From positions 1 to 43,808 of the forward strand of contig JABMOM010000011.1 in assembly GCA_013204105.1 (NCBI GenBank): a stretch of 43,808 nucleotides of DNA, given 5' to 3'. Positions 20,474-43,808 of this stretch are shown here, piece after piece (within the stretch, counting starts at the first letter, position 1; each line of letters begins with the position of its first letter). The notes beneath the pieces were generated by a model. The model was not told the DNA's origin and did no database searches. It saw nothing but the letters and a program-made list of their open reading frames with translations. The stretch comes from Flavobacteriales bacterium (GTDB taxonomy: Bacteria > Bacteroidota > Bacteroidia > Flavobacteriales_G > Salibacteraceae). The translations under genes were made by a program, and so were the position numbers.

Positions 20474-22231
20474 TTAATTGAAAAACACCTTAAAGTATTG
20501 ATATTCAACGAATATCGATTTGTTTAGTCCGGAATCGGTGAAGTAGTCAGGGCCGGAAACAATGGATTTCTCTGATTTTGTCGATATCTTGTTCATATCT
20601 AGGCCTCTTGCCTTCAACGCCTCGAATAGCGCGGCTTTGCCAGAAATGAGTCTTTGAGCACTCAGCTCATAGTTACCTCCATCAATCGATGTCGGTACGG
20701 TAGATGAACTTGCTACTAAGTTGATCGAAGCATTACCGTTTTTATTGATTTCTCCTTGGATACGATCATAAACTTGGTTCACCAAGTTTGCAAAGCCATT
20801 CGAGCTGGTAGAGTTGTAATCGAAGGTGATTTTGTATTCCTTCTCTGTACTTTCTGTTATTGGAGTGTCCTCAGAGACCAATTCGCTGTCATCAGAAGCG
20901 ATGCTCTCACCAGCGTTGATGTCCGAGGTAGTCTTATTCAAAACATCTCGGTGCTCGACAGACGCGAATTCGAGGTCTTTTTGAATGAAGAGTTTCTCAT
21001 CATTGACCATTTCGATTTTTTCCATTTGATGGCGTTCATCCACGAGGTCAATGCGCAGTTGACTTGCATCCATCCCCTCGACGGCTGGCTTAAGGATGTA
21101 ATTCATTCCCACAGCAAGTTGCTTAAAAGCGAAAAAACCATCCTTACTCAGGTAGGAGCTGTCGATAACCGAACCTTCTTCATCCATATAATACACCTTG
21201 GAGTTCACTGGCATCAGCTTTTCTGAGTCGTTCAGTGCGATTTTCCACTTCACGACCTTACCGAGCACTTCATCATCGATGGCAATGATTCGGTACTTTC
21301 CTTGTTTCTTGAAAAGAAAAATCTCCCGATTGAATTCTTGGTACTTGGTGCCGGGCTCGACGACGATGTCTTCACTGAACAGCACTTCATTCCCGAGTGA
21401 GTACTCAATTTCATAGGCGGCGTCCGAACGAACGATGAAAACGAAACTGCCGTTCTTGATCACGGGCTTCGCCTCACCGATAAATTTCTTGGTGTCTTTA
21501 TCGCGCATGACCACCTTGAAGTCTTCTGGTATGTATCCGTCCTCTGTGATGACCCATCCTTTGAGCACTGCAAATGCACTCAAGTCGAGGTCTGGCTGAT
21601 CTTCCTCGGACATGTACTCCACCAAATAGATGTCGGTCATTCCAATAGACCCATGGCTCTTGCTTGCGTAGTAGCCACGCTCTCCGTCAGGAGATGCAAT
21701 GTAGCTGTGGTCGTCATCGGTTGAGTTGATGGGATAACCAATGTTTATAGGTTCACCCCAGAGGCTGTCTTCTCCCAACTGCGCATAGAATATGTCGTAG
21801 CCGCCCATCGATTTATGACCGTTAGAGGCGAAATACATGGTTCGATCATCTGGGTGGAAGTAGGGTACATCTTCATCGTAAGGAGTATTGATCGGTTCAC
21901 CGATATTTTTCGCCTCTCCCCAAGTACCGTCGGGTAGTCGCCTGACGAAGTAGATGTCTTTACCTCCGAATCCCCCTTTGCGATCTGAAGTGAAATACAG
22001 GACCTTCTCGTGGTAGGCTATGTTGGCGTAAAATTCATTTGCCTCACTATTCACATCCGAACCAATGAGGGTAGGCTCTGTCCATCCGGTTCCAATTTCA
22101 AATTCACTTACGTAGATGTTGCCGTTGTCTTCTTCAGATTTGTAGATATAAAGCGTAGCTCCGTTTGTACTCATGCTTACGACCGAACTATGACGGTCTG
22201 AGGTATTGATGTTGATCAATTCGGGTTCCAT
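20474..22231 (-). CDS. C-terminal part of a PD40/OmpA-like protein (downstream of an in-frame stop)
   Basis: 585 residues from the first ATG after the TAA at 22262; homologous coding resumes immediately after that stop. It contains the PD40 propeller (MYFASNGHKSMGGYDIFYAQL, GYYASKSHGSIGMTDIYLVE), Ig-like/carboxypeptidase-regulatory-like modules at about 215-400, and a C-terminal domain from about 465. The last keeps N-YELSAQRLISGKAALFEALKARG of an OmpA domain, but the usual GHTD region is replaced by VASSSTVPTS, so the diaminopimelate-contacting Asp is absent. Without its upstream half it lacks a signal peptide and TPR part and would not be exported. Confidence 0.8.
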   Translation of the reverse strand: MEPELININTSDRHSSVVSMSTNGATLYIYKSEEDNGNIYVSEFEIGTGWTEPTLIGSDVNSEANEFYANIAYHEKVLYFTSDRKGGFGGKDIYFVRRLPDGTWGEAKNIGEPINTPYDEDVPYFHPDDRTMYFASNGHKSMGGYDIFYAQLGEDSLWGEPINIGYPINSTDDDHSYIASPDGERGYYASKSHGSIGMTDIYLVEYMSEEDQPDLDLSAFAVLKGWVITEDGYIPEDFKVVMRDKDTKKFIGEAKPVIKNGSFVFIVRSDAAYEIEYSLGNEVLFSEDIVVEPGTKYQEFNREIFLFKKQGKYRIIAIDDEVLGKVVKWKIALNDSEKLMPVNSKVYYMDEEGSVIDSSYLSKDGFFAFKQLAVGMNYILKPAVEGMDASQLRIDLVDERHQMEKIEMVNDEKLFIQKDLEFASVEHRDVLNKTTSDINAGESIASDDSELVSEDTPITESTEKEYKITFDYNSTSSNGFANLVNQVYDRIQGEINKNGNASINLVASSSTVPTSIDGGNYELSAQRLISGKAALFEALKARGLDMNKISTKSEKSIVSGPDYFTDSGLNKSIFVEYQYFKVFFN

Positions 22232-22261: not shown

Positions 22262-22264
22262 TTA
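22262..22264 (-). other. In-frame TAA interrupting the PD40/OmpA-like gene
   Basis: The codons before it encode HYEDI and those after encode ASFKNLRGEWMEP, all in one frame with the 20474 stop (22930-20474 is exactly 819 codons). The paralogue at 17347 reads YYEDIYYSLNVNGSW at the same place, so TAA stands where Tyr (TAT or TAC) is expected. Confidence 0.9.
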
Positions 22265-22930
22265 GATGTCCTCGTAGTGTAGTCCGGTGGTGACGTCTAT
22301 GTCTCCTAAGTTAGAATCGTCCTGGCGCCGCCTTCGAGAGGTGAAAAAAATTGAATTCTCGTCGAATCCAATGATTGGAGAATATTCAGAATACTGCGTA
22401 TTGATGGGTTTTCCTAGGTTGACAATGCGCACGTTAAGTGTGTCCTGCATAAGTTCTCGCGCATTCGCTACCATTTCTTTGGCGCGCAAGGCTTCGGGTT
22501 TGAGGTAATGTCGTTTGCTTGCGCGAGAAAGAAACACATCAAAATATTTGTTGGCGCTATCCAATTCGTACAGGAGGTGGTAGTTGTGTGCCAAGTAGTA
22601 TAGAGCTTCTACAGGAGCTGTCTCTATGGAAGGGTCAAACGGGTCATAGAAATTCTCGATCCCTGCTACTGCATCTATCAAATGTGGCAGTGCCTTCGCT
22701 TTATCCACCCCCATGGAAAGATGAGCTCGACCGGCCTTGTAGTGCAAATTCGCGTTGTTGGGGTCGTCCTTCAGCATCCGTTCGTAGATGCGAATAGCAA
22801 GTGAATAGAGACCATCATCGTTGAGGATGTTGGCTTCAGTGAATTCTTGTTTGAAGGTCTGTGCTTGAAGCGTGCTGGCAAGGAACAGTCCAGCGCCGAG
22901 TAGGCATAGTTTTCTCGTGATTGAGGTCAT
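22262..22930 (-). CDS. N-terminal part of a TPR/PD40 protein (ends at a premature TAA)
   Basis: 222 residues starting ATG at 22930 with a signal peptide ending near residue 24 (STLQAQ). Residues 40-150 are TPR-like (AIRIYERMLKDDPNNANLHYKAGRAHLSMG; YYLAHNYHLLYELDSANKYFDVFL). Residues 165-222 are the first PD40 blade (IVNLGKPINTQYSEYSPIIGFDENSIFFTSRR), after which it stops at a codon where the paralogue has Tyr. As read it would be an exported fragment with an unfinished propeller; it and the 20474 entry are best regarded as one 818-codon gene. Confidence 0.8.
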   Translation of the reverse strand: MTSITRKLCLLGAGLFLASTLQAQTFKQEFTEANILNDDGLYSLAIRIYERMLKDDPNNANLHYKAGRAHLSMGVDKAKALPHLIDAVAGIENFYDPFDPSIETAPVEALYYLAHNYHLLYELDSANKYFDVFLSRASKRHYLKPEALRAKEMVANARELMQDTLNVRIVNLGKPINTQYSEYSPIIGFDENSIFFTSRRRRQDDSNLGDIDVTTGLHYEDI

Positions 22931-30232: not shown

Positions 30233-33200
30233 TCACTTGAGCCTTACTTCGACCCTTCTGTTCTGAGTGCGTGCACTCACGGGGCATGGATAAAAGAGTA
30301 TACAATCTCCCGTCGGGATGATCTCGCCATGACTTCCCATGTTGATGTTGCTTTCGTCTACACCTTTGGAAATCAGAAGGTTTTGAAGGTTTTTGGCCCG
30401 TAATTCTGAAATACGATCGTTACTAGAGAACGAACCCCACGTATCTGTATATCCTTCAATCTGCACTTCTGAACCGGGGTTTTCCTTGAGGGTTTTAAGC
30501 AAACGAAAGGCAATATTTTCTGCAGTTTGGTCCAAACGCCATTGATTGAAACCGTACTCGAAGACATAATCTGGTGCTGGTTCAACCAATTCGGGTGCGA
30601 GGATTTCGATGTTTGCTCTCCGATTCATGTTGCGTTCTTCTTCGGTGCAAGGTCGTTCTGAACAATCGATAACTGGTTTTTCTGACTCCCAGTTGGAGAC
30701 TTTCATGTTGGCCACAGGAACTCCTCTGTTGTGCAGGTATTGGGCAATGAGGGCTGAACGAAGAGCACTGTAAGAGCGATTTCCTGTTCTTTCTGCGGGA
30801 TCGCTGTGCGCCTGTATCGAAATAACTGCCTCGGGGTTGTCCTGGTAGACTTGGATCATGGCATCGAGCTGTGCCTTATCTACTTCCGAGATTTCAGCGC
30901 TTCGGAATCCGTATGACATCGTGTTCTCTCCAACCACAGGGAGCGGCTTTCGCGTTGACTCTAGGTAGTCGTCCATCGCATTGTTTCCGGTGCCATCGTC
31001 ATTCGCAGCTAAGGCCCGCAGTTTGTATTGGTCCAGCTGAAGTTTACTGTACTTCCATTCACCATCCGTGGCGTAGGCCTTATCAAACTCCTTTCCGTCG
31101 GCCCCGAGCAAGGAGATATTGAACTCAGTATCTTCCTCAGAAAACTTGAAGAGGTAGTCTTGTTCTTTGGTCAGTTTGGTGAATTCGAAATTACCCTCCT
31201 GATCTACTTCAGCGACGTCGATGAGATTGCCATCCGCGTCAAACGCATACACCGTCAACCCTTCGTGATAGTCTCCAGGAAGCTTCTGGTAGATCTGACC
31301 TCGCAGTAGGCCTTGGCTTTGATCCATCGCATATGCTCCTTCCAATTCCGAGGCTGCTTCGAGGATGATCTTGGAATACTTGAAAGACATGTTGTCATCC
31401 AAAAAGAGCAGTCCTTTAAACGAACCATCGTAGTTAAACAGGGCTACTTTCAAGGCTTTGTCGTCCTCGTCCATTACGCGAATGGAGAAATCTTCGGATT
31501 GCGAGAGTCGCTTGAACGTAAAGTTTCCTTTCCCATCGGTGTAGGTAGAATCCACAATATTGCCCTCCTCATCGAATGCATAAACCAGTATGCCCTCTTT
31601 GTAGTCTCCAGGAAGGTTGTAATAGATCTGTCCACGCACAAACTCCGTTAATACAGGCATACCCGCATCACCTTCATCTAACTCCTGCAGTCGCGCTACG
31701 CGCTCGGCCTCCAAGGCGCTGTAGACGTATGATTGCAAATCATTCAAGCGGAGTACTTCGCTTGACTCACCCAATGCATCGTACATTACAAGGTTGAAGG
31801 TACCAGCATCTTTGACGTCTGGTTTGATCAGGTAATTCTGATCGGGGCGAAGCAGTCTGAAATTGAAATTTCCATCAGCATCGGTTTGCACGGACTCAAT
31901 CAAATCTCCGTCTTCATCATAGGCATAAAGGGTCATGCCATTAGCGTAATCCCCAGGCAAGACCTGGTATATCTGTCCTTTGACAGGCACCGGTTTGGTC
32001 ACATAAGCAAGTTCTTCATCTGACAATAGGTTATCGACGTCAATGGCTTCAAATAAGTAGTTCAGCTTGTCCAGGGGTTTGGCGTCGATGAATTCGTTGG
32101 CTATTCGGTCGATGAGATGCACTTCTGCTGTGTCGGCAAGCGCTTCCATAGATGCTGGAAGTAGCAGGCGATAGGGCGAGCCTGCTACAGTGCCAAATAT
32201 GGAGATGGCTCCTTGTGCGTTCGTCTTTGCCACGTGAAGTACCTCATCGTTATCATCAAAGAGTGCTACTGCCACATCACCAACCGGCCCAGAGTCGTTA
32301 TTGATGAACACCGTGTATTGCACTTTCTGGCTTACATCTGGACTTTGGGCGATGACTTCCCCAATGGACACTTCGAAGTAATCTCCAGAGGCATCGCTGA
32401 TTCGGGTGATGCCATTTTCTCCTTCATAGAAAACACTTGAACGATATATTGCGGAATCTTTTTCGTTCACCTTGATGGTGAGGTACTCAGATTTTGGTAG
32501 CCCCAGAAAAGCGTAGTATCCTGAACTATCGGTGGTTGAAGTAGTGTAGATCTTACCATCCTCGGTGTAGGCGATCAGTTCAATATCTATTAGGTCCTTT
32601 GGAAGTTCGGAGAACAGCTGACCAAAAAGATCGTAATGGGTCTCGGTATCTTGTTCTTCCAAACTTAGGAGGGCTTCCACTTCGTCTTTCGGAAGGGTGG
32701 TAAAGACAAAGGTCGACGCGCCTTCTTTTTGCATGACCTGAACTTTATCACCGGCATCGTTGACGACGTAGACATTGGAATTCAGCAGCAAGTCTTGATC
32801 TTCTTCGTTTACGCGTACCCTGAACGTTTCTTCTATTGGAAGGCTCCCGAACGAGAAGTTACCCAAAGAGTCTGTCTGAGTGGTGCGGAGCACATTGTCG
32901 AAGGCGTCCAACAACGAGAGCGATACTCCGTCTGATGGAAGGTTGGCGAATTCAAATATTCCTTTTACCTCCGTGCGCTGAGTGTCGCCCACGTTGGCCA
33001 ATTGTATGAAGCCGTAGATGTCGTCTTTGCCCAATCCACCATCCCTCGAAGACGAGAAGAGGCCTTTTGTCTCGTTGATGAAGCAGATGCCGAAGTCATC
33101 CTTCTTACTGTTGATGGGAGCCTTCAGGTTGACGGGTTCTGTCCATCTCCCTTGTCGCTTGTGCGAAACGAATAGGTCGAGTCCACCGTAACCGGGGTGA

Positions 33201-34258
33201 CCGTCAGAAGCAAAGTACAAGGTGGTATCGTCGCGCAGATATGGAAAAACCTCGTTTAGCGGTGTATTGATCAAAGCGGATAGGTTGCTCGGGGCAGACC
33301 ATCCCGAATCGGTCTGCTGCATTACGTACAAGTCCATTTCGCCAGTTGTTCCAGGGCGATTGCTAGAGAAGATCAAGGTTTTTCCATAAGGTGAGAGAGT
33401 AGGGTGGGCATTGGAAAAGGTATCCCCCCCGATCAAGCGCTTTGACCCGTTGATCCGCTTTCCTTTTACGATGAAGGCCTCATGAATCTCAATGTGTGAA
33501 GTACCTCCTTTACCAAGCTTGGACTCTGCCAGCGAATAATAGAGTCGGTTCCGGTTGCTGTCGATGGCTACAGGTCCGACGTGGTCGTCACGGTTAAGGT
33601 TTGAGAGAAAAGGACGGCTTCGTTTGAAAGAGAATCCCTCGGGTTCGTTTGCGTCTAGCTCAGCGTAGTACATCGACAAATAGGGTGCATTGCTATATCC
33701 AGATGAGCTTTCTGTGATGTGGTCAACGTTGCGTTCGGTCACAAACACAACACCTCCATCATACGGAAAGGGCGCAAATTCCGACATGCTAGAATTCAAA
33801 TCGAAGGTCGGTTTGAGCTCGAAAGATGACGTGTTCGCTGCCCATTCGTTGACGCGCGTTAAGGAACGCAACATCAATTGAGCGATGAAACTTTCGGGCT
33901 CCTTTTGGACGTAGCGTCTGATTTTAGCTTCGGCCTCCTCTGGTTTTCCGTTTTTGATCAAAGCCTGTGCGTAGTGCACAAGCCCGGGATCGCTGATTCC
34001 GCCCAGCATATCGGCACGTTCGAAATAGGTCTCGGATTCTGGGAAGCGATGCAGTTTCATGTAGGCAAAGCCAAGCTGCTCGCATAGTGCCGCATTCTCG
34101 GCATTGTGCTTCACCTTTTTCTTCAGGTATTTCGCCGCATCTGCGTACCGATTCACTTCCATGTATTGGGCAGCCTTTTCCGAGGGAGCCTGCGCTTGCC
34201 CAAAGGAACAAGTGAAGAAGATGATCAGCAGGGGTATGTATGAAAGTATACTTCTCAA
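30233..34258 (-). CDS. Giant TPR/PD40/Ig-like protein with two C-terminal OmpA domains
   Basis: 1341 residues from a TTG at 34258, which sits 7 bp after the PorP/SprF stop; no ATG exists nearby and the signal peptide begins right after this codon (LLIIFFTCSFGQAQA). TPR helices at about 28-135. PD40 propeller at about 155-420 (GKTLIFSSNRPGTTGEMDLYVM). Then about six carboxypeptidase-regulatory/SdrD-like modules, of which the last three share GQIY..LPGDY. Two OmpA domains follow: the first with AHSDPAERTGN...LRSA, the second with GYTDTWGS...N-RISELRA, ending EVRLK. Both retain Asp and Arg for peptidoglycan binding. Likely anchors or energises the neighbouring PorP/SprF protein, as PorE-type proteins do, by analogy only. 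Confidence 0.9.
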   Translation of the reverse strand: MRSILSYIPLLIIFFTCSFGQAQAPSEKAAQYMEVNRYADAAKYLKKKVKHNAENAALCEQLGFAYMKLHRFPESETYFERADMLGGISDPGLVHYAQALIKNGKPEEAEAKIRRYVQKEPESFIAQLMLRSLTRVNEWAANTSSFELKPTFDLNSSMSEFAPFPYDGGVVFVTERNVDHITESSSGYSNAPYLSMYYAELDANEPEGFSFKRSRPFLSNLNRDDHVGPVAIDSNRNRLYYSLAESKLGKGGTSHIEIHEAFIVKGKRINGSKRLIGGDTFSNAHPTLSPYGKTLIFSSNRPGTTGEMDLYVMQQTDSGWSAPSNLSALINTPLNEVFPYLRDDTTLYFASDGHPGYGGLDLFVSHKRQGRWTEPVNLKAPINSKKDDFGICFINETKGLFSSSRDGGLGKDDIYGFIQLANVGDTQRTEVKGIFEFANLPSDGVSLSLLDAFDNVLRTTQTDSLGNFSFGSLPIEETFRVRVNEEDQDLLLNSNVYVVNDAGDKVQVMQKEGASTFVFTTLPKDEVEALLSLEEQDTETHYDLFGQLFSELPKDLIDIELIAYTEDGKIYTTSTTDSSGYYAFLGLPKSEYLTIKVNEKDSAIYRSSVFYEGENGITRISDASGDYFEVSIGEVIAQSPDVSQKVQYTVFINNDSGPVGDVAVALFDDNDEVLHVAKTNAQGAISIFGTVAGSPYRLLLPASMEALADTAEVHLIDRIANEFIDAKPLDKLNYLFEAIDVDNLLSDEELAYVTKPVPVKGQIYQVLPGDYANGMTLYAYDEDGDLIESVQTDADGNFNFRLLRPDQNYLIKPDVKDAGTFNLVMYDALGESSEVLRLNDLQSYVYSALEAERVARLQELDEGDAGMPVLTEFVRGQIYYNLPGDYKEGILVYAFDEEGNIVDSTYTDGKGNFTFKRLSQSEDFSIRVMDEDDKALKVALFNYDGSFKGLLFLDDNMSFKYSKIILEAASELEGAYAMDQSQGLLRGQIYQKLPGDYHEGLTVYAFDADGNLIDVAEVDQEGNFEFTKLTKEQDYLFKFSEEDTEFNISLLGADGKEFDKAYATDGEWKYSKLQLDQYKLRALAANDDGTGNNAMDDYLESTRKPLPVVGENTMSYGFRSAEISEVDKAQLDAMIQVYQDNPEAVISIQAHSDPAERTGNRSYSALRSALIAQYLHNRGVPVANMKVSNWESEKPVIDCSERPCTEEERNMNRRANIEILAPELVEPAPDYVFEYGFNQWRLDQTAENIAFRLLKTLKENPGSEVQIEGYTDTWGSFSSNDRISELRAKNLQNLLISKGVDESNINMGSHGEIIPTGDCILFYPCPVSARTQNRRVEVRLK
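31090..31992 (-). repeat. Three tandem GQIY-LPGDY modules
   Basis: Three copies of about 110 residues begin with VKGQIYQVLPGDY, VRGQIYYNLPGDY and LRGQIYQKLPGDY, near 31990, 31640 and 31303, spaced 333-344 bp. Each continues with YA-D-DGN and DADGNFNF-type strands. They are part of the 30233 gene and probably form an extended rod. Confidence 0.8.
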
Positions 34259-34265
34259 ACGAGGG

Positions 34266-35201
34266 CTAGAAATACCTAGGTGATACGGTCTTGTTTTTTG
34301 GTAGGCCGAACTCTAACCCGAGAAAAAGCTCATGGCTGGTTCCTTGGGAAAGTCGGAGGTTGTTGAATGGATAATCAAAGGAATAGCCCAAGCGGACATT
34401 CTTATTCATCAGGTATTCTAGGATGATCACGCCGCCATAACCGTGGCGATAGGTGACTCCAGCCCAGAGCTTCTTGTCGATGAGGATGCTCACGTTGGCA
34501 TCGACCATGCCTTGAAACAGTCCTGCTTGCTTATAGAGTATGCTTGGGCGTAAGGTTAAATTATCGGTCAAGACAAAGGCCCGACCAACGACCAATGAGA
34601 GGTGCCGAAATTGGCGGTAGGCATTGGATCCGTTCACAGCTGAATCAGACACCACAATGCGAGGTTCAGTGAGATGAGCCAACTCTAAACCAGCGTAGAA
34701 TTTATTGGTGTGGTAGAAGATGCCAAAATCCGCATCCGGCACTACTACCTGCTCCAAGCCATAGGTTGGAATCACGTCCCCTTCGTCCTTGTATTCAATC
34801 TTGTTCCAGTCGAAGGTCAGGTATTGCACTCCCAGCCCTAGTCCTAGACTCATTTGTCCGTTCAGCAAACGGAAACGATAGGCATAGTCTACTTCAGCAG
34901 AGATCGTATTTCTTGGTCCGATCATGTCGTTGGTGACCTGGAACCCGAGTCCCATCTTCTTTTGCTTAAAGGGACCGTGGATAGAGAAGGTCTGTGTTAC
35001 CGGAGCGCCATCGAATCCGACCCATTGGTTTCGGTACAAGGCAACCACACTCAATGCCTCACGCGATCCTGCATAGGCAGGGTTGATGCCCAATGGATTG
35101 AACATGTACTGGTTGAACTTAGGATCTTGCTGGGCAGAGGCATCCTCGTTCGCAAGAAGCAAAAGAAGCAAGATCGCTATGGTAAAGAGTTTCTTCATCA
35201 T
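34266..35201 (-). CDS. PorP/SprF family type IX secretion-associated outer-membrane protein
   Basis: 311 residues with a signal peptide ending ASAQ (about residue 24). The diagnostic start of the mature protein, QDPKFNQYMFNPLGINPAYAGSREALSVVALYRNQW, is essentially the family consensus. The rest is a beta-barrel with alternating strands and GGVIILEYLMNKNVRLGYSFDYPFNNL near the end. Family members (PorP, SprF) help secrete or attach specific T9SS type B cargo at the surface. It overlaps the upstream type B cargo gene by 4 bp (ATGA), the arrangement known for sprB-sprF-like pairs, so the 35198 protein is its probable partner. Confidence 0.95.
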   Translation of the reverse strand: MMKKLFTIAILLLLLLANEDASAQQDPKFNQYMFNPLGINPAYAGSREALSVVALYRNQWVGFDGAPVTQTFSIHGPFKQKKMGLGFQVTNDMIGPRNTISAEVDYAYRFRLLNGQMSLGLGLGVQYLTFDWNKIEYKDEGDVIPTYGLEQVVVPDADFGIFYHTNKFYAGLELAHLTEPRIVVSDSAVNGSNAYRQFRHLSLVVGRAFVLTDNLTLRPSILYKQAGLFQGMVDANVSILIDKKLWAGVTYRHGYGGVIILEYLMNKNVRLGYSFDYPFNNLRLSQGTSHELFLGLEFGLPKNKTVSPRYF

Positions 35202-35938
35202 CTGGAAATCTCTATCCAGCCTTTGTAGCTGCTGTTATCAAACTTGGCAACGAAGTAGTAAGTGCCATCGGGCAGGAGATTGCCATTTCTGTGCAAGCCA
35301 CTAAAACGAGCGGCATCATCAAGGTTGTTGTAGGAACCGATTTCCCAAACCAAAGCGCCATACCGGTTGTAGACCTCGACCGTCTTTTCTGCAAAGAACT
35401 GTGCATTGTCTACGTGCCAGTAGTCGTTGAAATTGTCATTGTTAGGTGTGATACCGATGTAAAAATGAGGCGCACAGTCCACATTCGAATCTGCTTCAAC
35501 CTCGATGGTCCCAATGGCGGCGATGCCATCATTTCCGGTTACGGTGAGAAAGTATTCGCCGACTTCCGCCTGAACGATTTTATCGGCCGTGGAACCCGTA
35601 CTCCATTGATAAGTAACGGGTTGCGTAAAATTATCCGACAAAAAGGCAATCGTAACGGTTCCGTCGTTCGCTCCAAGGCATGCTGCGTTGGTCGCTTGTA
35701 ACTCAACGATCAGCGGGTTGATCACTACATAGTTCGGTTGCTGGAAGCCTTGTGTTATGACAAAACCAGCATTGGAGAAGGTTTGAGTTACAGGTTCGCC
35801 CACCGATGCAGAGAGGGAGAAGTTGCTATTCTGAAAGTCCTGGGAAGCCACGCCGATCAACACTTGATCGAGGGCGACTTGCCCTTTGCTCAAAAGAACA
35901 AACCCCATCATTACTGTTATGATGAAAAGCTTACGCAT
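35198..35938 (-). CDS. Secreted protein with T9SS type B (gliding-associated) C-terminal sorting domain
   Basis: 246 residues with a signal peptide ending near residue 20 (LLSKGQ). Residues 20-75 hold a common flavobacterial N-terminal motif (SASVGEPVTQTF, ITQGFQQPNY). Residues 78-150 are an SprB-like repeat (TNAACLGANDGTVTI...YQWSTGST...GEYFLTVTGNDG). The last 90 residues are a classical type B domain: ITPNNDNFNDYW, VEVYNRYGALVWE, and LPDGTYYFVAKF ending in YKGWIEISR. Such cargo normally needs a PorP/SprF partner, which follows directly. The protein is small and could be an adapter between the secretion machinery and the fibre proteins upstream. Overlaps: 8 bp with the preceding gene, 4 bp with the next. 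Confidence 0.92.
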   Translation of the reverse strand: MRKLFIITVMMGFVLLSKGQVALDQVLIGVASQDFQNSNFSLSASVGEPVTQTFSNAGFVITQGFQQPNYVVINPLIVELQATNAACLGANDGTVTIAFLSDNFTQPVTYQWSTGSTADKIVQAEVGEYFLTVTGNDGIAAIGTIEVEADSNVDCAPHFYIGITPNNDNFNDYWHVDNAQFFAEKTVEVYNRYGALVWEIGSYNNLDDAARFSGLHRNGNLLPDGTYYFVAKFDNSSYKGWIEISR

Positions 35939-36299
35939 CAGTCGACCTTGTAGATTTGGTAAGTGATTCGGGCGTTATTGACCCGAAGGTGCCCCTTCCC
36001 CAACCAATGTCTGTCCTATCGAATGCATATAAGCCCCCTGGAAGATCGGTTTGGAATATCATCAATTCATCGGATGGATTCACGATTACATCGCGTTGAG
36101 CGTCTGCCACGGAAGAGACGAGAATTCCATTTGAGGTGCTCGTCACATCAAGCATTAGGCTGCTGTCGGGATTTGCTCCGGTCTCATTGATGCTCATGTT
36201 TTGAGCAAGCATTTCCGTTTGAAGCAACAGTATCACAAATGCTATCACTACTATTCGAAAAGGAGCATGGTATTTTTGATATGTTGATTTGTATGTCAT
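35931..36299 (-). CDS. Small exported protein resembling the fibre N-terminal module
   Basis: 122 residues with a signal peptide ending near residue 33 (EMLAQ). The remainder closely follows residues 46-115 of the next protein upstream (36299-38386): SINETGANPDSSLMLDVTS, then AQRDVIVNPSDELMIFQTD, then GGLYAFD. This module stands at the N-terminus of many Bacteroidota tail-fibre-like proteins. It may be a truncated paralogue or a genuine small subunit. Start ATG shares one base with the upstream stop (TAATG); the 3' end overlaps the next gene by 8 bp. Function unknown. Confidence 0.75.
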   Translation of the reverse strand: MTYKSTYQKYHAPFRIVVIAFVILLLQTEMLAQNMSINETGANPDSSLMLDVTSTSNGILVSSVADAQRDVIVNPSDELMIFQTDLPGGLYAFDRTDIGWGRGTFGSITPESLTKSTRSTDA

Positions 36300-38386
36300 T
36301 AGTTGAACGATGGGTGAACCGAGCTGTATGCTTGAGATTCCATGTGCACGAAGAACACGGTCACACCGCTGCTTAGGGCGGAGGCCGGTTTGGTAATCGT
36401 TATTTGATCGTTTGTCGCGTTATAGGCAATCGTTGGTACAGTGAGGTAAGTAGCGCTGGTCGTGTAGGATGTGACCAGGTGGAAATAGACATCATCGCCT
36501 AGGTTTGGTTTGCTCACTAACCATACGGCTCCACTTTGTTCCGTACCCGATTGCCCAGTTACGCGGATCTCAGCGTTCCAATAGTTGCCCAATGCTCCGG
36601 CTACATCAATGACTACTACCGTCGAAGTAGCGTTGGAGACACCTGGTAAAAATGTCCCACTCTCAAAGCGAGTATTCGATAGTATCGAAGGGCCTGTTAC
36701 CTGCAGCTTCTCAGACGGGCTCACCGTACCGATGCCAACATCTCCAGCACTCGTAATGGTCACCACATCCACGGCATCATCTCTGAAGCGAAGACCTTGG
36801 GCTGCGTCTTGAAACATGTACCAATCGTTGCCCACGCTGTCTTTAAGGTTGAGACCGCTGGTAAGGTCCCCGAGGCTGCTTTCAATGCTGAGGGCAGCGT
36901 TTGGCACTGTGCCACCAATAGACAAGCGATCGCCAACAAACATTTGATTCGGGGTATAGACTCCCCACGTGCTCAAGGTAGAATCCTTGTAGCCAAGGGC
37001 TCCCCAATAAGTGCCGGAGTATTGAGATCCGATGACACCAGCGGAGATTCCATAGTCATTGTAGTTATATCCGGCTATACCAGCAGTATAGCTATTTCCC
37101 CAAAAGCTCTCTCCTTTGACCGCCGCATCAATAGAATCCACGTGCCACGAGGATCCTCCATTCGCGGCGCCATTCGTTCCGCCACGGTAACCATAGATGG
37201 TAGTGAAACCAGGGCCGAAGTCGTTGGTGACGAGGTTGGCACTTCGTAAGGCATTGATACGGTGGAGTGAGTCTTGGGTTGAATTGACATTTAAGAAACC
37301 ACCTAGGTAGGCGCTGCTGGGCGAGTAAATGCCCCAATCATAGGTGCCACTATTGTAGGCAAGTGCAGTCCAAGTGGTCCCGAATACATCCGAACCCAAT
37401 ACACCCGCTGAAAGGGAATAATCCAGATAACTGTAACCAGCGACGCCAGCGGTGTAGTTGTTGCCCCAGAAGGTGTATCCCTTTATTGCAGCATCAATGC
37501 CCGTGTTGCTCCAAGAACTACCTCCAGCCGCCGCCAAACCATTGCCGCCGCGATAAGCATAGATCGTCGAGTGGTTCGCTCCAAAATCCGTCGAATCCAT
37601 GGCCGACCTGAATACGCTGAGTCGAGCGGTTGAATTTGTGGCTTGATTGATACCAACGCGCCCTTTCGGTTGCAGGGTGAGGACATTTTGGTTTAGCCAG
37701 ACTTGACCGTTGTTGGTGAGGCTTCCAAACCGCATCTCTTCCGTGTCGAAATCTAAGCTCATCAAGCGATTCGAGTCCGAATGGCTTTGGTTTTCCATGT
37801 AGATCCTCGGATTGAACTTTGAGGTGATGAGTAGGCCTGTTCCAAACGAAGCGTTGACCAATAAGTTCGACGACGTGTCTTGTACATGCAGGACGTAATT
37901 TCCAGTTGTATCACCAATCACAAGCGAGTCTAGGTTATAGATCCCATGTCCAGCTGCGTTGTTGCCCAGACTTAGCACGGAGTCAATGCCGTAGTTGCCC
38001 AGGCTATCTATCAACATCTTGATTTCTAAGCTGTCGAGGATGTGGTCCCATGCCGCAAAGGCAGTATCGTAGATGTAAAAACCTCGCTCTGCATCACGTT
38101 GGAAGACCATCAAGGCTTGTGCTGGATTTAAAATGGCTTGTCTTTGGGCCTTGGTCATGCGCGGCATCAAAAATCCCTTGCTGACGCTTTGAATATCTAG
38201 CATAGCGCTGCTGTCTGGTCGGTTGCCTTGTGCATTGACGCTCATACTTTGAGCATTGACATTCGTGTGCAACAGGTTGATTACCACACACAGAAACAGC
38301 GCTAGCGCTCCTTGTGTTAGGATCCTCATCCGTTTGGTGATATGCATTGCTGGTTTCATGTCTGGATTAATAGAGTTGGCAGTCAT
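36299..38386 (-). CDS. Tail-fibre-like surface protein with duplicated beta-rich modules
   Basis: 695 residues. The start ATG at 38386 shares a base with the upstream stop (TAATG); signal peptide with a long basic lead-in, ending VNAQ near residue 46. N-terminal module: GNRPDSSAMLDIQSVSKGFLMPRMTKAQRQAILNPAQALMVFQRD. Then two copies of a roughly 110-residue module containing IYGYRGG or IYAYRGG, GGSSW, DAA-KG, FWGN-YTAG, and a W-ALGY/W-ALAY strand. A GDVGIGTVSPSEKLQVTG motif, usual in phage-type fibre proteins, precedes the C-terminal domain of about 110 residues. Presumably extracellular and trimeric; no T9SS sorting domain is seen. Function inferred only from architecture. Confidence 0.82.
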   Translation of the reverse strand: MTANSINPDMKPAMHITKRMRILTQGALALFLCVVINLLHTNVNAQSMSVNAQGNRPDSSAMLDIQSVSKGFLMPRMTKAQRQAILNPAQALMVFQRDAERGFYIYDTAFAAWDHILDSLEIKMLIDSLGNYGIDSVLSLGNNAAGHGIYNLDSLVIGDTTGNYVLHVQDTSSNLLVNASFGTGLLITSKFNPRIYMENQSHSDSNRLMSLDFDTEEMRFGSLTNNGQVWLNQNVLTLQPKGRVGINQATNSTARLSVFRSAMDSTDFGANHSTIYAYRGGNGLAAAGGSSWSNTGIDAAIKGYTFWGNNYTAGVAGYSYLDYSLSAGVLGSDVFGTTWTALAYNSGTYDWGIYSPSSAYLGGFLNVNSTQDSLHRINALRSANLVTNDFGPGFTTIYGYRGGTNGAANGGSSWHVDSIDAAVKGESFWGNSYTAGIAGYNYNDYGISAGVIGSQYSGTYWGALGYKDSTLSTWGVYTPNQMFVGDRLSIGGTVPNAALSIESSLGDLTSGLNLKDSVGNDWYMFQDAAQGLRFRDDAVDVVTITSAGDVGIGTVSPSEKLQVTGPSILSNTRFESGTFLPGVSNATSTVVVIDVAGALGNYWNAEIRVTGQSGTEQSGAVWLVSKPNLGDDVYFHLVTSYTTSATYLTVPTIAYNATNDQITITKPASALSSGVTVFFVHMESQAYSSVHPSFN
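36930..37610 (-). repeat. Two tandem 110-residue modules in the 36299-38386 gene
   Basis: The copy at about 36930-37260 and the copy at about 37270-37610 share the order FG---TIY-YRGG, GGSSW, DAA-KG--FWGN-YTAG-AGY-Y-DY--SAGV-GS, and W--Y-P. Coordinates are approximate. Confidence 0.75.
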
Positions 38387-40506
38387 TAATTTTTAATGTG
38401 ATACACACATCGGTATTGGATGGTGTTGCTCGGGCTAATGGGGTCATCGGCAGAAACGGTCATGCGCTCATCATTGGTGGTAGCTCCTGCGCCGCCTCCT
38501 ACAATGGAGGCGTTGTTTTGACTTGCTTGGTCTAGCCACTCCCATGTATTCGTTCCTGACCAATCAACACCGACCACCTGTGTTCCGCTGTACCACTCCG
38601 CCCAGCTTGGGAGCGTCGCTTGGTTCGCTGTACAGGTATCTGCAGCTTGAAACCAATTATCACCCGTATGGGCAGAAGTTTCAATACAGAAGTTTGAGTT
38701 GACCTGTGAATAACCGGATGGACAAGTAGTATTCTCGATGGTCTGCCACTCTAGTCTACCCAATGAGGCGTTGAATTGCAGCACTTGGCCCGGTAGGGGA
38801 GCGGTATCAGGAAGGACAATTTTATAGGTTGAAAGCAGTGTGTCTGCAACAGAAAGCCCCACATTGAAATTATTCACGACGTCTTGCATCGCTATGACTC
38901 CTGCGGTAGCGGTATGGGGTCGCACGTATATGGCCAAACTGTCATTCACAGGCTGTACATCTAAGGCGTAGTTTGGATTGTCAACATTGATACCAACGCC
39001 CCCAAGCTTTACCGCCACACTCGTACTTGGTATTGTATCCAAGTCTAATACCGTTCCTGCCGGCATTGAATCCGCGCTGATGAATTGAATGCCATTGTTG
39101 AAGAGCAGCATGAGAGAAGCAAAGTCCGCCTTGGTATAGAGACCGGAGTCGTTGATATTGTACGATGATACCAGTCCTTTGTCACCACCATTGTCCCAAT
39201 CGAAAAGGTGGATGGCATCACCGATCTGAATATCGGATTGAGTAGATGTGGTGCCAATGCCTAAACTCCAAGTGGTGTCTGCACTGTGAACAGTATTTCC
39301 AGTCGTGTCCCACAGGCCATTGGAAGGCACTTCCCAAGTTGCATTTCCTGTAGCGTCAGAAGTTAAGACGTAGCCATTGCTAGAACCATACGGCAATTGA
39401 AGAGTGTCCTTAATCTGAACTTTGCCTTGGTCGAATACGCCAGCATAGTGAACGCCATTTGACCCTGTCGCGGTGGCGTAGAGAGCTACCGTAGAATCGG
39501 AGTTGACACCTGAGCCTGCCTGGGCATAGACAGCAAAATTGGTGTCTCCACCTGATGCTGACGCTCTGACCCCGTAATTGTTGTCGCTTTGATTTCCTGC
39601 CTCTGTTTCTGCGTCAGCAAGAACTCCTGTATTTTCATCTCCATTTCGTCCAATGGCCCAAACTCCGGTTTTGTAACCAGCTACACCTACCGAAGCAGCT
39701 GCTAGTCCATAAGCATCTGCTACAGCGCTCTGATCAAGGTTATAAAACAAACCTGACATTGACTGAATGGAAGGAGAGGTCCCTGAGATGACCGAAGAAA
39801 CACCAAAGGAGTCTGAGGTGATGACGTTTAGTTTACCTCCAATACCCAATCCTGTATTGGTATCACCTATGTATATGGGTTGATCTAAATTGTATAGGTA
39901 ATTCGTAGTAATCGTTGTATCCCAATCAGAATCCGCAGACGGTAGGGCCCATTCGGCATTGCCATTGTTGTAGGTCAAGACATCGCCATTCACTCCCGGA
40001 CTTCCACCAATTCTAAGTTCGTTGGCCCCACTTCCAATGATGATGGAATCGGTCCAAATGGAATCGATGTAGGCATCGCCACCGACTTCTAACCTGCGCA
40101 ATGGCACGGTTACGCCAATGCCTAAATTGTTGTTAACGTACACCGACCCTTGATCGAAGTATCCAGCCCAGTTGGTGCCTGTACCTGAGGCCGTTCCATA
40201 GATACCGTATTTAGTGTTTCCATTGCCCGAGGCCTCAGCATATACACCATACTTGTCGCCATTGTTGGCTGAAGAAGAACCGTAAACCGCATACTTGTCA
40301 CCGGCGCCAGTGCCAGTAATGTTCGAAAAGACACCCTTCGTTTGGGCTGCTGAAATCGTGGAATTATTTACTTCAATGCTTATGTCACGTGTGTTATCAT
40401 TTGCATTGATAAGCGAGGTGTTGGCGGCCGAAGAGCCGACGCTGATTCCTCCTAGGTAAGCAGTATCATTCAATGCTACATTCCCTTTGGTTAGAACCTC
40501 TTCCAA
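38386..40506 (-). CDS. C-terminal part of a giant fibre-like protein with lectin-like end (after an in-frame TAG)
   Basis: 706 residues from a TTG at 40506, but the same frame is open back to the TAG at 40537, so it belongs to the gene that runs to the window edge. Modules alternate between GSS--NTS or ANSS-like beta segments (KYGVYAEASGNG, NYGVRASASGGDTN) and phage-fibre motifs (LGIGTTSTQSDIQIGD, YALDVQPVNDSL). The last 120 residues are distinct: CPSGYSQVNSNFCIET, NWFQAADTCTANQATLPSWAEWYSG, W-GTNTWEWLDQ and YRCVYHIKN, with four Cys. This resembles the C-type-lectin-like end found on Bacteroidota fibre proteins and is a candidate receptor-binding tip. TAATG overlap with the next gene. Confidence 0.82.
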   Translation of the reverse strand: MEEVLTKGNVALNDTAYLGGISVGSSAANTSLINANDNTRDISIEVNNSTISAAQTKGVFSNITGTGAGDKYAVYGSSSANNGDKYGVYAEASGNGNTKYGIYGTASGTGTNWAGYFDQGSVYVNNNLGIGVTVPLRRLEVGGDAYIDSIWTDSIIIGSGANELRIGGSPGVNGDVLTYNNGNAEWALPSADSDWDTTITTNYLYNLDQPIYIGDTNTGLGIGGKLNVITSDSFGVSSVISGTSPSIQSMSGLFYNLDQSAVADAYGLAAASVGVAGYKTGVWAIGRNGDENTGVLADAETEAGNQSDNNYGVRASASGGDTNFAVYAQAGSGVNSDSTVALYATATGSNGVHYAGVFDQGKVQIKDTLQLPYGSSNGYVLTSDATGNATWEVPSNGLWDTTGNTVHSADTTWSLGIGTTSTQSDIQIGDAIHLFDWDNGGDKGLVSSYNINDSGLYTKADFASLMLLFNNGIQFISADSMPAGTVLDLDTIPSTSVAVKLGGVGINVDNPNYALDVQPVNDSLAIYVRPHTATAGVIAMQDVVNNFNVGLSVADTLLSTYKIVLPDTAPLPGQVLQFNASLGRLEWQTIENTTCPSGYSQVNSNFCIETSAHTGDNWFQAADTCTANQATLPSWAEWYSGTQVVGVDWSGTNTWEWLDQASQNNASIVGGGAGATTNDERMTVSADDPISPSNTIQYRCVYHIKN

Positions 40507-40536
40507 TGTATTGGTATCACTAACGGCTGATTGAAA

Positions 40537-40539
40537 CTA
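40537..40539 (-). other. In-frame TAG interrupting the giant fibre gene
   Basis: Codons before: GSGNL; after: FQSAVSDTNTLEEVLTKG, same frame. Two other copies of this module read GSGNLSF (TCG at about 42685, TCC at about 41400), so TAG replaces a Ser codon, most simply TCG to TAG. Confidence 0.9.
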
Positions 40540-43500
40540 TAGGTTACCCGAACCGTCCGTTGTTAGAACCTGTCCATTTGAGCCATCTGATGTGGGGTAG
40601 GACAATGTATCAACTCCATCGCTCGTGCGGAAGGTTCCGTTGATTTGCGCAATGTCGTTATCGAATTCGCCGTAGATCAATGGACTGGCAGAACTGGAAT
40701 TTTCGATGAAGAGTCGATTGTCTGCAGAGTCGTTGTTTCCGGCGGAGTATCCTAGCTTGATGCTTCCAGATGTGGTGGCTCCTGTAGATAAGCGACCCGC
40801 ATTGAATCCAAGGAAAGTGTTGTTGTCGCCTTCTTCCACCAAGATGCCTGCTCCTGACCCCATGATTACGTTGGATTGGCCATTGACCATGTTTTGCGCT
40901 GATCGCTCGCCAATGAATACGTTGAAACTGCCGGTATTGTGCAAGTAGCCTGCACTTGCTCCTAAGGCAGTATTCTTTTGGCCAGTGACATGGCTTGGCA
41001 TTGCTCGATAGCCGATAGCTGTATTCTCATTATCCTCATTCTGGTCCAACGATAAATATCCGAATGCCGCGTTTCGAGATCCTGTGGTACCGGATCCCAT
41101 GGAGTAAGCCCCAAACGTGGTGTTGAAGGTTGATCCACTATTGTATATGTACGCATTGTCGCCAAAAGCGGTATTGGCAAAGGTCGAGGAGTAATCATCA
41201 TTGCGTCCGGTATTGCTTCCATAATACAGGTTGCCATTCGTCCCGTACACTTCTACGCGACCACTGTCAAAATTTATTTGTTGCGTTCCGCCCATATAGA
41301 AGTGGATTGCATCGTCGTCCACTAGACCGCTGTCTGCTTCAATCCTTGTATCACCATCGGCATCGGTGATCCGCGTACTATCCTGGGGTGAGATGGCTTG
41401 AAAGGAAAGATTGCCAGAACCGTCTGTTGTTATTACTTGTCCGCTCGTACCGTCAGCCGTAGGGTAGGTGAGCGTGTCGCCCGCTAAGTTGTTGGTGCGG
41501 AAAGTGCCGCCAACTTGCAAAATATCGTTTGTGAAGTCACCCCAGATGAGCGGGCTGGCACTATTAGAGTTTTGGATGTAGAGCTTGTTGTTGGTGGTGT
41601 CATTGTACCCAGCTTGATATCCCAAGAATATATTTCCTGATTTGGTATGGTTTGCCGTGCCTCGACCTGCTTCGTATCCGAGCAACGTGTTGTTGCTTCC
41701 AGAGGTGTTGTAAAAATCTACATCAGCTCCGAGGAGTGTATTGTTGTTCGAGTTGGTATTCAGGATTCCAGCGCGATTTCCAATGTTCGTGTTTCCTGTG
41801 CCGGTTCCATTGCTGTAAAGCGAAGATTCACCGATCGAAACGTTTCCATATCCTCCTGTTGCGTTTCGCTGAGAATGTCTACCGATGGCCACAATGCTAT
41901 TTCCTGTGCTGCTTGATTCTAATGCTCGATCTCCAATGGCTACGTTTTGCTTACTGCCACTGTTATCTGCATCTCCGGCGTTCAAGCCAATGTAGACGCT
42001 ATTACCCGTGTTGGTCACATGCAAACGTCTTCCATCCATGATGTAGTTTTCGGTGCCGGCTATATCAAAGCGAATTTGATCCTCGTCTACCAATTCTTCT
42101 ACTTGAATTTTCGTGTCATTATCCCCATCCGCGACTTGAGTGCTGTCACCAGCATCATTCGCTTCCCAAGTAGCATTTCCATTTGCATCAGAAGTAAGTA
42201 CATATCCGTTTGATGCACCGTTTGGCAGTTTGAGGGTGTCGTCAATTTGTGTATTTCCTCCAACATGCAGAATCTCTGAAGGACTTGATGTGCCGATGCC
42301 CACATGGTTGCTATCAATGATCATGGCTACGCCAGAAGCCAATCCGGCTGCGTTTCCAAATGCAAACATCAGTTTTCCTGTCCCCTCGCCGTTTGCAGAT
42401 CCCGTGCTGATAAGCTTGTAATATCGTCCACCTGCCGAAGTGTTTGATAAATTCAACCAGGTTCCAATGGTATTCGATCCGCTCAGGGTGGTATGTACGA
42501 AACTAGAAGATGACACTTCGAGCTGGGCTCCGGGTGTATTCGAGCCAATGCCAACATTACCTGAGTTATCGATGTATAAGCCTTCATCATCTCCATCTCC
42601 AGAAATGAATCGGGTACCTGTTATCAGATTGGTGTCAAGAGTATGATCACCGAGATCGTCTCCAATAGTGGCTGCGAACGAGAGATTCCCGCTACCGTCG
42701 GTGGTTATTACCTCCCCATTAGCACCATCCGCGAGCGGATAGGTGAGAAGGTCTCCTCCTGTATTCAAAACTTGGAAGCTGCCTCCAATTCGAACGGTGT
42801 CGTTCAAGAAATCACCCCAGATGAGTGGATTCAAGGAAGAAGAGTTTTCGATGTATAACTGGCTGTTAGCGTTCGTATCACTATACCCAGCTTCGAATCC
42901 GATGAATACGTTGCTTGAACCTGCATTGTGATCTCCTGCCCAAGCTCCTATCGCAGTATTGTTGTTCCCGTTGTTGTTGGCCAGGGTCCTGAAACCAATG
43001 GCCGTGTTTAAATCGCCTGTGGTAGTCGCTTCCCCGGAAGCGCGCCATCCAACGGCTACATTACCACTGCCCGTAGTGTTTGCTGACAAAGCTTGATTAC
43101 CGACGCTGATGTTCCGCTCTCCGGTAGTTGTCGAAGCCGAAGCATCCGCACCTACAGCCGTGTTCTCTTTACCGGTAGAAATGGTCAATGCTTGTGCTCC
43201 AACAGCAGTATTGGCAAAGCCACTATCAACAGTAGCAAGTGCACCCGAACCAAATGCGGTATTGCTAAATCCTGTGCCGTTTGAAGAGAGGGCATTGCCA
43301 CCCATGCCTAGATTCGATGAGGCCGCGATGACATTGACCCGCCCGTCGTAAAAACGATAGCGCTCTTGTCCGCTGATCTCAATGACAACCGTGCTATCGC
43401 TCGGGTCGATGTACACTTTGGAATCGAAAAGTCCGATTCGCGTGGAGTCTTCGCCAATGCTGGAGAGATCGACCATGAAGGTCGAATCGTTTTCAACGAT

Positions 43501-43808
43501 TGTTAGCGCATTGGTCAAGGAGTCGAATGTGACGCTGTTAATGCGTTCATTCAACGAGTCCGTGTCTTCATCCTCAAGCACATGCGCTGCTATCAGCGAG
43601 TCAAGAATGAAAATGCTGTCCTGATTGATTTGGATTTGAGCGTCCAATCCAAGAATGTCCAGAGCGTTGGTGGCAATATCCGCTTGCGCAGCAGCAATGG
43701 AATCCGAGTTCGTCTGAATGTTGGTTGCGTTAGCAGCAATATCGGCTTGAGCTGCAGCGATGGAGTCTGCGTTCTCTTGAATATTCGCGATGTTGGTGGC
43801 GATATCCG
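40537..43808 (-). CDS. N-terminal (5'-incomplete) part of a giant coiled-coil/beta-roll fibre-like protein
   Basis: Runs off the right edge; the TTG at 43647 is not a real start because the frame is open to 43808. About 1089 visible codons. It opens with a 21-residue coiled-coil repeat (DIATN-ANIQENADSIAAAQA). Then come three supermodules, each with a YadA-head-like left-handed beta-roll (NTAVGAQAL, NTAIGAWAG, NVFIGFEAGY types of about 14-16 residues), a segment NKLYIQNS--ASPLIWGDF-ND, and LTYP-ADG-GQVITTDGSGNLSF. The supermodules lie near 43300-42680, 42010-41390 and 41220-40540. GIG--TPSEILHVGG motifs mark fibre-type segments. It ends at a TAG and continues as the 38386 entry. Probably a trimeric extracellular fibre; the export signal is outside the window. 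Confidence 0.82.
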   Translation of the reverse strand, partial: DIATNIANIQENADSIAAAQADIAANATNIQTNSDSIAAAQADIATNALDILGLDAQIQINQDSIFILDSLIAAHVLEDEDTDSLNERINSVTFDSLTNALTIVENDSTFMVDLSSIGEDSTRIGLFDSKVYIDPSDSTVVIEISGQERYRFYDGRVNVIAASSNLGMGGNALSSNGTGFSNTAFGSGALATVDSGFANTAVGAQALTISTGKENTAVGADASASTTTGERNISVGNQALSANTTGSGNVAVGWRASGEATTTGDLNTAIGFRTLANNNGNNNTAIGAWAGDHNAGSSNVFIGFEAGYSDTNANSQLYIENSSSLNPLIWGDFLNDTVRIGGSFQVLNTGGDLLTYPLADGANGEVITTDGSGNLSFAATIGDDLGDHTLDTNLITGTRFISGDGDDEGLYIDNSGNVGIGSNTPGAQLEVSSSSFVHTTLSGSNTIGTWLNLSNTSAGGRYYKLISTGSANGEGTGKLMFAFGNAAGLASGVAMIIDSNHVGIGTSSPSEILHVGGNTQIDDTLKLPNGASNGYVLTSDANGNATWEANDAGDSTQVADGDNDTKIQVEELVDEDQIRFDIAGTENYIMDGRRLHVTNTGNSVYIGLNAGDADNSGSKQNVAIGDRALESSSTGNSIVAIGRHSQRNATGGYGNVSIGESSLYSNGTGTGNTNIGNRAGILNTNSNNNTLLGADVDFYNTSGSNNTLLGYEAGRGTANHTKSGNIFLGYQAGYNDTTNNKLYIQNSNSASPLIWGDFTNDILQVGGTFRTNNLAGDTLTYPTADGTSGQVITTDGSGNLSFQAISPQDSTRITDADGDTRIEADSGLVDDDAIHFYMGGTQQINFDSGRVEVYGTNGNLYYGSNTGRNDDYSSTFANTAFGDNAYIYNSGSTFNTTFGAYSMGSGTTGSRNAAFGYLSLDQNEDNENTAIGYRAMPSHVTGQKNTALGASAGYLHNTGSFNVFIGERSAQNMVNGQSNVIMGSGAGILVEEGDNNTFLGFNAGRLSTGATTSGSIKLGYSAGNNDSADNRLFIENSSSASPLIYGEFDNDIAQINGTFRTSDGVDTLSYPTSDGSNGQVLTTDGSGNL
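40540..43300 (-). repeat. Three long supermodules (beta-roll plus GSGNLSF linker)
   Basis: Copies at roughly 42680-43300, 41390-42010 and 40540-41220. Shared elements in order: YadA-head-like beta-roll, SQLYIENSSS/NKLYIQNSNS/NRLFIENSSS, PLIWGDF or PLIYGEF, and TTDGSGNL. Intervening sequence between the first and second copies is longer and includes fibre segments. Boundaries approximate. Confidence 0.8.
43681..43806 (-). repeat. 63-bp tandem repeat (21-residue coiled-coil unit) at the window edge
   Basis: Two units, 43806-43744 and 43743-43681, encode DIATNIANIQENADSIAAAQA and DIAANATNIQTNSDSIAAAQA. A third begins (DIATNALDIL) and diverges. 21 residues equals three heptads, and hydrophobic positions fit a coiled coil. 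The array continues beyond the window. Confidence 0.85.

Follow-up and report, generated by a model that had tools for sequence, protein, structure and literature searches.

The described systems that most resemble the locus reported here are the mosaic adhesive trimer (MAT) fibres of Bdellovibrio bacteriovorus and the surface complexes of the type IX secretion system (T9SS). According to the MAT authors, what the MAT N domain binds on the cell surface has yet to be identified (PMC10769870). Type B T9SS cargoes are reported to be bound by PorP-like shuttles, with PorE-like proteins proposed as cell-wall anchors in static complexes (PMC9143113, PMC12618676), and mobile SprF is tied to the gliding track through a twin-cysteine motif in its C-tail (PMC12635249). 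The locus described here lies on the minus strand of a 43,808-nt stretch of DNA, referred to as the window, which is the whole of contig C8 (JABMOM010000011.1) in the 3.1-Mb, 46-contig genome of a Flavobacteriales bacterium of the Salibacteraceae (GCA_013204105.1). It contains genes for fibre proteins, a small T9SS cargo that we term the adaptor, a PorP/SprF-family protein and a PorE-like protein (Table 1); SprA is present in the same genome.

The window system has in common with the MAT fibres (PMC10769870; NF053851) an apparently related N module following a signal-peptide-like start, a long shaft, and exchangeable C-terminal tips that include S74 chaperones and a C-type-lectin-like tip. Unlike the MAT fibres, it occurs in Bacteroidota and is encoded with a T9SS cargo adaptor, and its singly scanned proteins score below the curated NF053851 cut-off. 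The P. gingivalis PG1035-PorP-PorE and F. johnsoniae Fjoh_3952-3951-3950 sets consist of the same three gene families as the window (PMC9143113, PMC12618676), but in the available text their cargoes are putative adhesins or of unknown function, whereas the window cargo is a 246-aa adaptor with a fibre-associated N-terminal domain, and the window PorE-like protein differs in having two OmpA stretches. The SprB/SprF gliding adhesin likewise combines a type B cargo with a PorP/SprF partner (PMC12635249, in the part available), although the window PorP/SprF has no cysteine, and so no twin-cysteine motif, and has a PorE-like gene beside it; a static anchor is therefore expected. The grappling-hook protein GhpA of Aureispira (PDB 9flp) is listed, by its database title, as one 5898-residue chain, the last 161 residues of which match residues 99–247 of the adaptor profile, corresponding to the SprB-repeat region and sorting domain (E=1.3e-16); in the window system, by contrast, the sorting signal belongs to a different protein from the fibre.

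A first-pass annotation of the window, made from the sequence alone, had named the locus as its strongest candidate for an undescribed system. The triad of type B cargo, PorP-like and PorE-like proteins has already been put forward as a static surface anchor in the papers cited above. Of the adaptor–fibre pair no published description was found; the search covered open-licence literature only, so that absence from print is unproved. The same literature yielded no papers on T9SS together with endosialidase, on T9SS with a tail fibre in Bacteroidota, or on an endosialidase chaperone in Bacteroidetes; among the 15 listed of 310 papers from a broader search none mentions peptidase S74 or a tail fiber domain-containing protein, and the word stem Bacteroid is absent from the main text of its mosaic adhesive trimer papers. 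Three features are additions to that annotation: an in-frame TAG in the giant fibre gene, the apparent relationship to MAT fibres, and the adaptor domain.

Adaptor genes and their fibre neighbours

The conserved core of the locus is the pair of adaptor and fibre genes. Small cargoes with type A and with type B sorting domains have an N-terminal domain of ~50 residues in common (roughly GE....T.......TQGF.Q), for which no Pfam or NCBIfam family was found (80 adaptors in the NCBIfam scan). Among the 60 genomes surveyed for the pairing, 35 of them from the family of the window organism, a profile of this domain has 89 matches, distributed over 44 genomes. The fetched stretches contain 86 adaptor open reading frames (ORFs) after removal of six overlapping stretches, three of the 89 places being without an adaptor ORF (L178, L217, L226); the adaptor alignment (A7) comprises 80 of these, with the six that are cut, long or fused to S74 left out. 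Our own hidden Markov models (N1, NYQA, S74, PorP, CHU_C, OmpA/PD40 and the type A C-terminal domain) were iterated on the fetched stretches, and counts made with them are thus not independent of the sample; NCBIfam and Pfam serve as independent controls. All signal peptides are assignments made by eye.

A labelled fibre gene on the same strand is the immediate neighbour of 67 of the 86 adaptors and is within two genes of 73, against a background of fibres at 5/366 gene positions four to six genes away from adaptors. With the seven seed proteins removed, the corresponding numbers are 63/79, 66/79 and 4/343. Two N-terminal fibre modules were defined, NYQA (in the giant fibre protein and others) and N1, and the reciprocal test with NYQA covered 20 of the 35 family genomes. 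In these, an NYQA gene is situated within 2.5 kb and on the same strand for 37 of 43 adaptors, where ~0.15 would be expected. Pairs with the 5′ position number 30 and those with the 3′ position 11.

The 20 genomes contain 66 NYQA modules, of which 40 were within 8 kb of an adaptor in the first count. Twenty-three of the 26 genes left unpaired were re-read, and 20 of these are clustered with a small type A cargo missed by the first model (five of them forming one run that shares a single adaptor at its end), giving a total of 60/66 NYQA genes clustered with an adaptor. In the re-read stretches the refined adaptor model recognises 16/17 small type A cargoes and none of the eight large ones. The remaining unpaired genes are three that were re-read (L260, L266, L273), the copy on contig C9 of the window organism, a degraded copy in G003 and a pseudogene in G005. 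The window organism also has a second adaptor, of type A, on its contig C44 (L203, 9571–10074), directly after an 835-aa NYQA fibre with an S74 domain.

These counts bear on the possibility that the locus is an ordinary type B adhesin operon of cargo, PorP-like and PorE-like genes with unrelated fibre genes adjacent by chance. The triad is published on its own and occurs without adjoining fibres in three loci (L172, L175, L179), as would be expected under that explanation, but an adjacency of 67/86 versus 5/366 disfavours chance neighbours, and the gene order recurs in G004, G015, G025 and five further records picked by OmpA similarity alone. Chance adjacency, which we consider highly improbable, was rejected on these counts. 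The presence of the same pairing in many related bacteria suggests how the fibres are held on the cell surface.

Fibre modules, sorting signals and tips

As judged by comparison with the NCBIfam model NF053851 (Bdello_MAT_N), not with Bdellovibrio proteins themselves, the NYQA module appears to be a relative of the MAT N domain of Bdellovibrio. Scans against NCBIfam and Pfam covered 61 of 75 eligible complete fibres (350–1000 aa; 66 had been listed under the size limit, of which five were set aside). Of the 61, 40 match NF053851 (NCBIfam, E≤1e-3); the probable giant N-terminus of the window organism also matches (E=3.3e-8), though its 33.5 bits fall short of the cut-off of 60. No T9SS sorting family is matched by any of the 61 at the same limit, and our own models find no T9SS signal in 135 NYQA and N1 ORFs (131 once overlapping stretches are removed, 12 of these being C-terminally cut). 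The C-terminal tips are of the MAT type, with a lectin-like tip in the window, albeit behind the TAG, and S74 endosialidase-chaperone domains in 21/61 relatives; the SDxxxK motif is kept in 45 of 46 S74 domains. The window tip has a profile match to the C-type lectin tip of Bdellovibrio Bd2740 (PDB 8oks; E=0.0011) and a weaker one to the mannose receptor (E=0.019), and its family also terminates giant fibres in other genomes.

The S74 domains, and the resemblance of some fibres to tail and structural families in PHROGs (the giant's middle part has virion and tail structural matches), would also be features of phage tail fibres or a prophage remnant. The surroundings of the fibres speak otherwise: ten non-fibre proteins in and around the locus have no PHROGs match of known phage function, with a single weak match of unknown function; 50,697 phage records yield no match to one NYQA query, and the N1 fibre has one weak match; the NYQA alignment matches three IMG/VR contigs; and the locus is flanked by conserved chromosomal genes. 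A phage origin was rejected on these counts and is scarcely credible. One IMG/VR contig, L251, has an adaptor (2425–2928) directly ahead of an NYQA fibre gene (2929–4377) and is probably bacterial DNA or a prophage edge. A Foldseek comparison of the NYQA model with PDB and viral models gave weak beta-sandwich matches (best E 1.2e-3 and 6.8e-4), and the NYQA sequence profile gave two antibody-type matches in PDB (E 0.055 and 1.1); neither result was used.

Putative anchor genes and organization of the window locus

In G004 (of the same genus) and in G015 and G025 (other genera of the family), fibre gene(s), a small gene, a type B cargo gene, PorP/SprF and OmpA/PD40 follow each other on one strand, the small gene being absent from G025. 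The three loci lie beside similar YfiR-like, TPR and regulator genes. The PorE-like relatives are full-length in G004 and G015, split in G003, and 1139 aa long in G025. Proteins of 153–166 aa are encoded between fibre and adaptor in G015 (L038 11826–12326) and G004 (L040 7997–8458), at the place of the N1 stub in the window.

Eighty named loci were picked by similarity to the OmpA protein alone, of which 67 have no PorP, adaptor or fibre label and 13 have PorP. In seven of these 13, PorP and OmpA are preceded by a type B adaptor; L068 has another type B cargo in between, and L060 a small reverse ORF. A labelled fibre is located upstream in six of the seven, and in the seventh (L062) there is an unlabelled fibre-like ORF, recognised by eye. 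Two of the seven loci are the G015 and G004 contigs, leaving five further named records with the same order.

A different arrangement is seen in G014, G017, G023 and G028, where the same fibre cluster (a giant with lectin-like tip, then N1 fibres) is headed by a small type A cargo, and the stretches read contain neither a PorP nor an OmpA label. The type A domain is over the NCBIfam cut-off in G014, G017 and G028 and is recognised by our own model only for the cut ORF in G023. The proposal of the first-pass annotation that fibre, PorP/SprF and OmpA genes form a single coupled system is supported by a conserved same-strand unit in G004, G015, G025 and the five records, but does not extend to these four genomes; the separation of fibres from PorP/SprF and OmpA in relatives, which that annotation had named as telling against it, is found in part, with a type A cargo there instead.

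Over the whole adaptor set, PorP and then OmpA follow 14/15 type B adaptors (the exception is L197) and 0/69 of type A, two adaptors being without a type call; as the outside check, the NCBIfam scan of 80 of the 86 gave 68 type A and 15 type B matches. Because type B adaptors have PorP and OmpA whereas type A adaptors do not, these two genes look like one exchangeable anchor that accompanies the type B adaptor, not a fixed part of the system. The rule that emerges is that sorting-domain type predicts the adjoining anchor genes.

Table 1. Features of the adaptor–fibre locus in the window.
Feature	Coordinates	Strand	Remarks
Giant fibre protein, middle part	40537..43806	(-)	ORF open at window end; ended by in-frame TAG (40537–40539)
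Giant fibre protein, remainder of shaft and C-type-lectin-like tip (38392–38727)	38386..40536	(-)	Same frame past the TAG
Second fibre protein, 695 aa	36299..38386	(-)	Signal-peptide-like start (by eye) and N1 module
Fibre stub, 122 aa	35931..36299	(-)	Signal-peptide-like start and N1 module only
Adaptor, 246 aa	35198..35938	(-)	Signal-peptide-like start (by eye); adaptor domain 35723–35875; type B sorting domain, residues 162–246
PorP/SprF-family outer-membrane protein, 311 aa	34266..35201	(-)	No cysteine; PF11751 235.7 bits (cut-off 22.3)
PorE-like putative anchor, 1341 aa	30233..34258	(-)	TPR_19, PD40, CarboxypepD_reg and OmpA (two stretches), by domain search

The overlapping minus-strand ORFs of the window and all junctions named in the first-pass annotation were read directly from the sequence: TAATG at 38386 and at 36299, an 8-bp gene overlap at 35931–35938, ATGA at 35198–35201, and a 7-bp gap followed by a TTG start at 34258. 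Its identification of a type B cargo, a PorP/SprF protein and a double-OmpA protein is likewise upheld by domain searches (PF13585, PF11751; TPR, PD40, OmpA). The adaptor is a T9SS type B cargo, with a sorting domain scoring 67.3 bits for PF13585 (CHU_C; cut-off 27) and 49.6 bits for TIGR04131 (cut-off 35); its SprB repeat, at 24.1 bits, is under the cut-off of 28. TPR, beta-propeller, carboxypeptidase-regulatory and OmpA domains are combined in one protein by the gene at 30233–34258, as is characteristic of PorE-like proteins, and the PorP/SprF protein is a probable shuttle and anchor. The fibre stub and the N1 module of the 695-aa fibre are 44% identical (E=1.3e-16). Under the thresholds applied, the 695-aa fibre itself has no T9SS signal and belongs to no family recognised by Pfam, NCBIfam or PHROGs. 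Neither promoter-like sites (16; shuffle mean 17.8) nor terminator-like sites (12; shuffle mean 12.5) are above chance.

The two uppermost ORFs (40537–43806 and 38386–40506) constitute a single reading frame broken by an in-frame TAG. The TAG site is a serine in two paralogous repeats (TCG and TCC), TAG being one base from TCG, and given the continuity of frame across it, the TTG 'start' at 40506 is probably no gene start. TAG is an ordinary stop in 4 of the 24 ORFs checked. The giant is one complete ORF through the tip in G014, G017, G023 and G028, and in G015 and G025 it is stop-free up to the contig end. Its middle part in the window contains ADIAAN..NIQ..DSIAAAQ-like repeats as well as YadA-head-like regions that were recognised by eye only and have no Pfam match.

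The missing start of the giant is very probably at the left end of contig C9 (L254:3–1577), where repeats of this kind follow an NYQA module and a signal-peptide-like start. This fragment adjoins a gene resembling that upstream of the locus in G003 and G004. The ends of C8 and C9 have no exact overlap in common, so that we infer the join; the adaptor–giant pair of the window organism seems to be split over two contigs.

Two further sets of broken ORFs are present elsewhere in the window. Consecutive plus-strand ORFs at 9674–12547 and 12592–15894, mutually out of frame, look like a single long repeat protein whose ends are of PD40 and OmpA type. A TPR/PD40 gene is broken into two ORFs (20474–22231 and 22262–22930), as it is at a similar place in G010 (L045 16976–19317); the break is possibly real or possibly an error.

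Proposed role of the adaptor

The most plausible reading of the locus, which we consider somewhat more probable than not, is a surface-fibre system in which the adaptor docks the fibre at the cell surface and its sorting domain picks the anchor. The fibres (giant NYQA/MAT-type with lectin-like tip, and N1 fibres) would reach the periplasm via their signal peptides and, being without a recognised outer-membrane export signal, would have this signal supplied by the small adaptor. The adaptor's N-terminal domain would dock the N-terminal module of the fibre, and the T9SS would accept the sorting domain at the adaptor's C-terminus. In the type B case, PorP/SprF would receive the adaptor and pass it to the PorE-like double-OmpA protein, which would tie the complex to the peptidoglycan, giving a static holdfast whose lectin-like tip points outward; for the same adaptor domain in type A relatives, attachment would instead follow the sortase route, unless the protein is released. 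Physical docking, trimeric assembly, signal-peptide cleavage, the fibre route over the outer membrane and the adhesive role are steps that we infer.

A stronger form, to be held only tentatively and with less than even confidence, is a widespread Bacteroidota two-component pathway in which MAT-type fibres depend in trans on a small T9SS cargo for both export and anchoring: the adaptor domain would grip the N module of the fibre while still in the periplasm, the pair would then be carried through the T9SS by the sorting domain, and a swap between types A and B would shift fibres between sortase attachment and a PorP–PorE cell-wall anchor. Alternatively, the adaptor may anchor only, the fibres crossing the outer membrane by another route and a surface T9SS cargo catching their N-terminal module. 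To our knowledge Bdellovibrio has no T9SS. It makes MAT fibres nevertheless, the word 'secretion' does not occur in the available main text of the MAT paper (PMC10769870), and no T9SS signal was found on the fibres. No recurrent other-export-like gene is located beside adaptor and fibre in the gene listings, as inspected by eye, and we regard this alternative as unlikely, if a serious one.

The adaptor domain alone is poorly predicted by AlphaFold2, with block means of the predicted local distance difference test (pLDDT) of 28–40 over residues 11–70 in eight sequences, whereas the SprB-repeat region and sorting domain are placed well. Low values would be in keeping with a segment folding upon contact with its partner, though a shallow alignment explains them equally. 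That the domain is not predicted to fold alone would also suit an adaptor that is a co-regulated surface sensor or second adhesin with no docking, the operon reflecting joint regulation only. The pairing spans many genera and survives both the switch between types A and B and the change of 5′ or 3′ position (30 and 11 pairs), and this explanation is accordingly improbable.

Besides these pLDDT values, several observations count against docking and trans export as proposed. No labelled fibre is within two genes of 13/86 adaptors (L171, L172, L174, L175, L176, L179, L191, L195, L213, L228, L240, L243 and L249). L171 and L176 have unlabelled fibre-like ORFs upstream, and L174, L213 and L243 are near contig ends; L172, L175 and L179, from another family, are type B adaptors with an unrelated gene upstream, and L191, L195, L228 and L249 are type A adaptors with no fibre. 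Conversely, nine of the stretches checked (L053–L055, L165–L170) have N1 fibres but no adaptor, and a fibre is also the neighbour of 10/71 T9SS cargoes without adaptor domain in the same stretches. Matches to the MAT N domain are weak in single scans: four of six proteins match NF053851 at 27.1–36.6 bits, all under the cut-off of 60, the G014 giant and the 695-aa N1 fibre of the window do not match, nothing in the window genome is over the cut-off, and a below-cut-off match occurs in one of 14 control genomes (Methanocaldococcus jannaschii). We know of no precedent for a ~2000-residue fibre crossing the T9SS on a separate carrier.

The state of the locus itself belongs with these points. In the window, the TAG parts the lectin-like tip from the giant shaft, and with the giant also cut by the contig end, this copy of the locus may be decaying or failing. 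Thirteen genomes belong to the genus, and the position of the locus was looked at in all but G001, G002, G011 and G012; it is broken in G003 and present only as relics in G005, G006, G007, G008, G009 and G010. The locus is accessory and repeatedly lost in the genus, although most genomes are drafts and single breaks may be errors. The relics (L042 in G009, L043 in G006, L044 in G008, L045 in G010, L046 in G005 and L047 in G007) consist mainly of the C-terminal part of the OmpA protein, two having a fibre stub and that of G007 being only an OmpA C-terminal fragment with two stops.

The pairing of adaptor and fibre genes offers a candidate partner for the MAT-type N domain in Bacteroidota. If the proposed docking and export are true, they would constitute a new use of the T9SS, one in which effector and export signal are divided between two proteins. 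A small cargo family, the N-terminal domain of which is without a Pfam or NCBIfam family of its own, would thereby gain a function.

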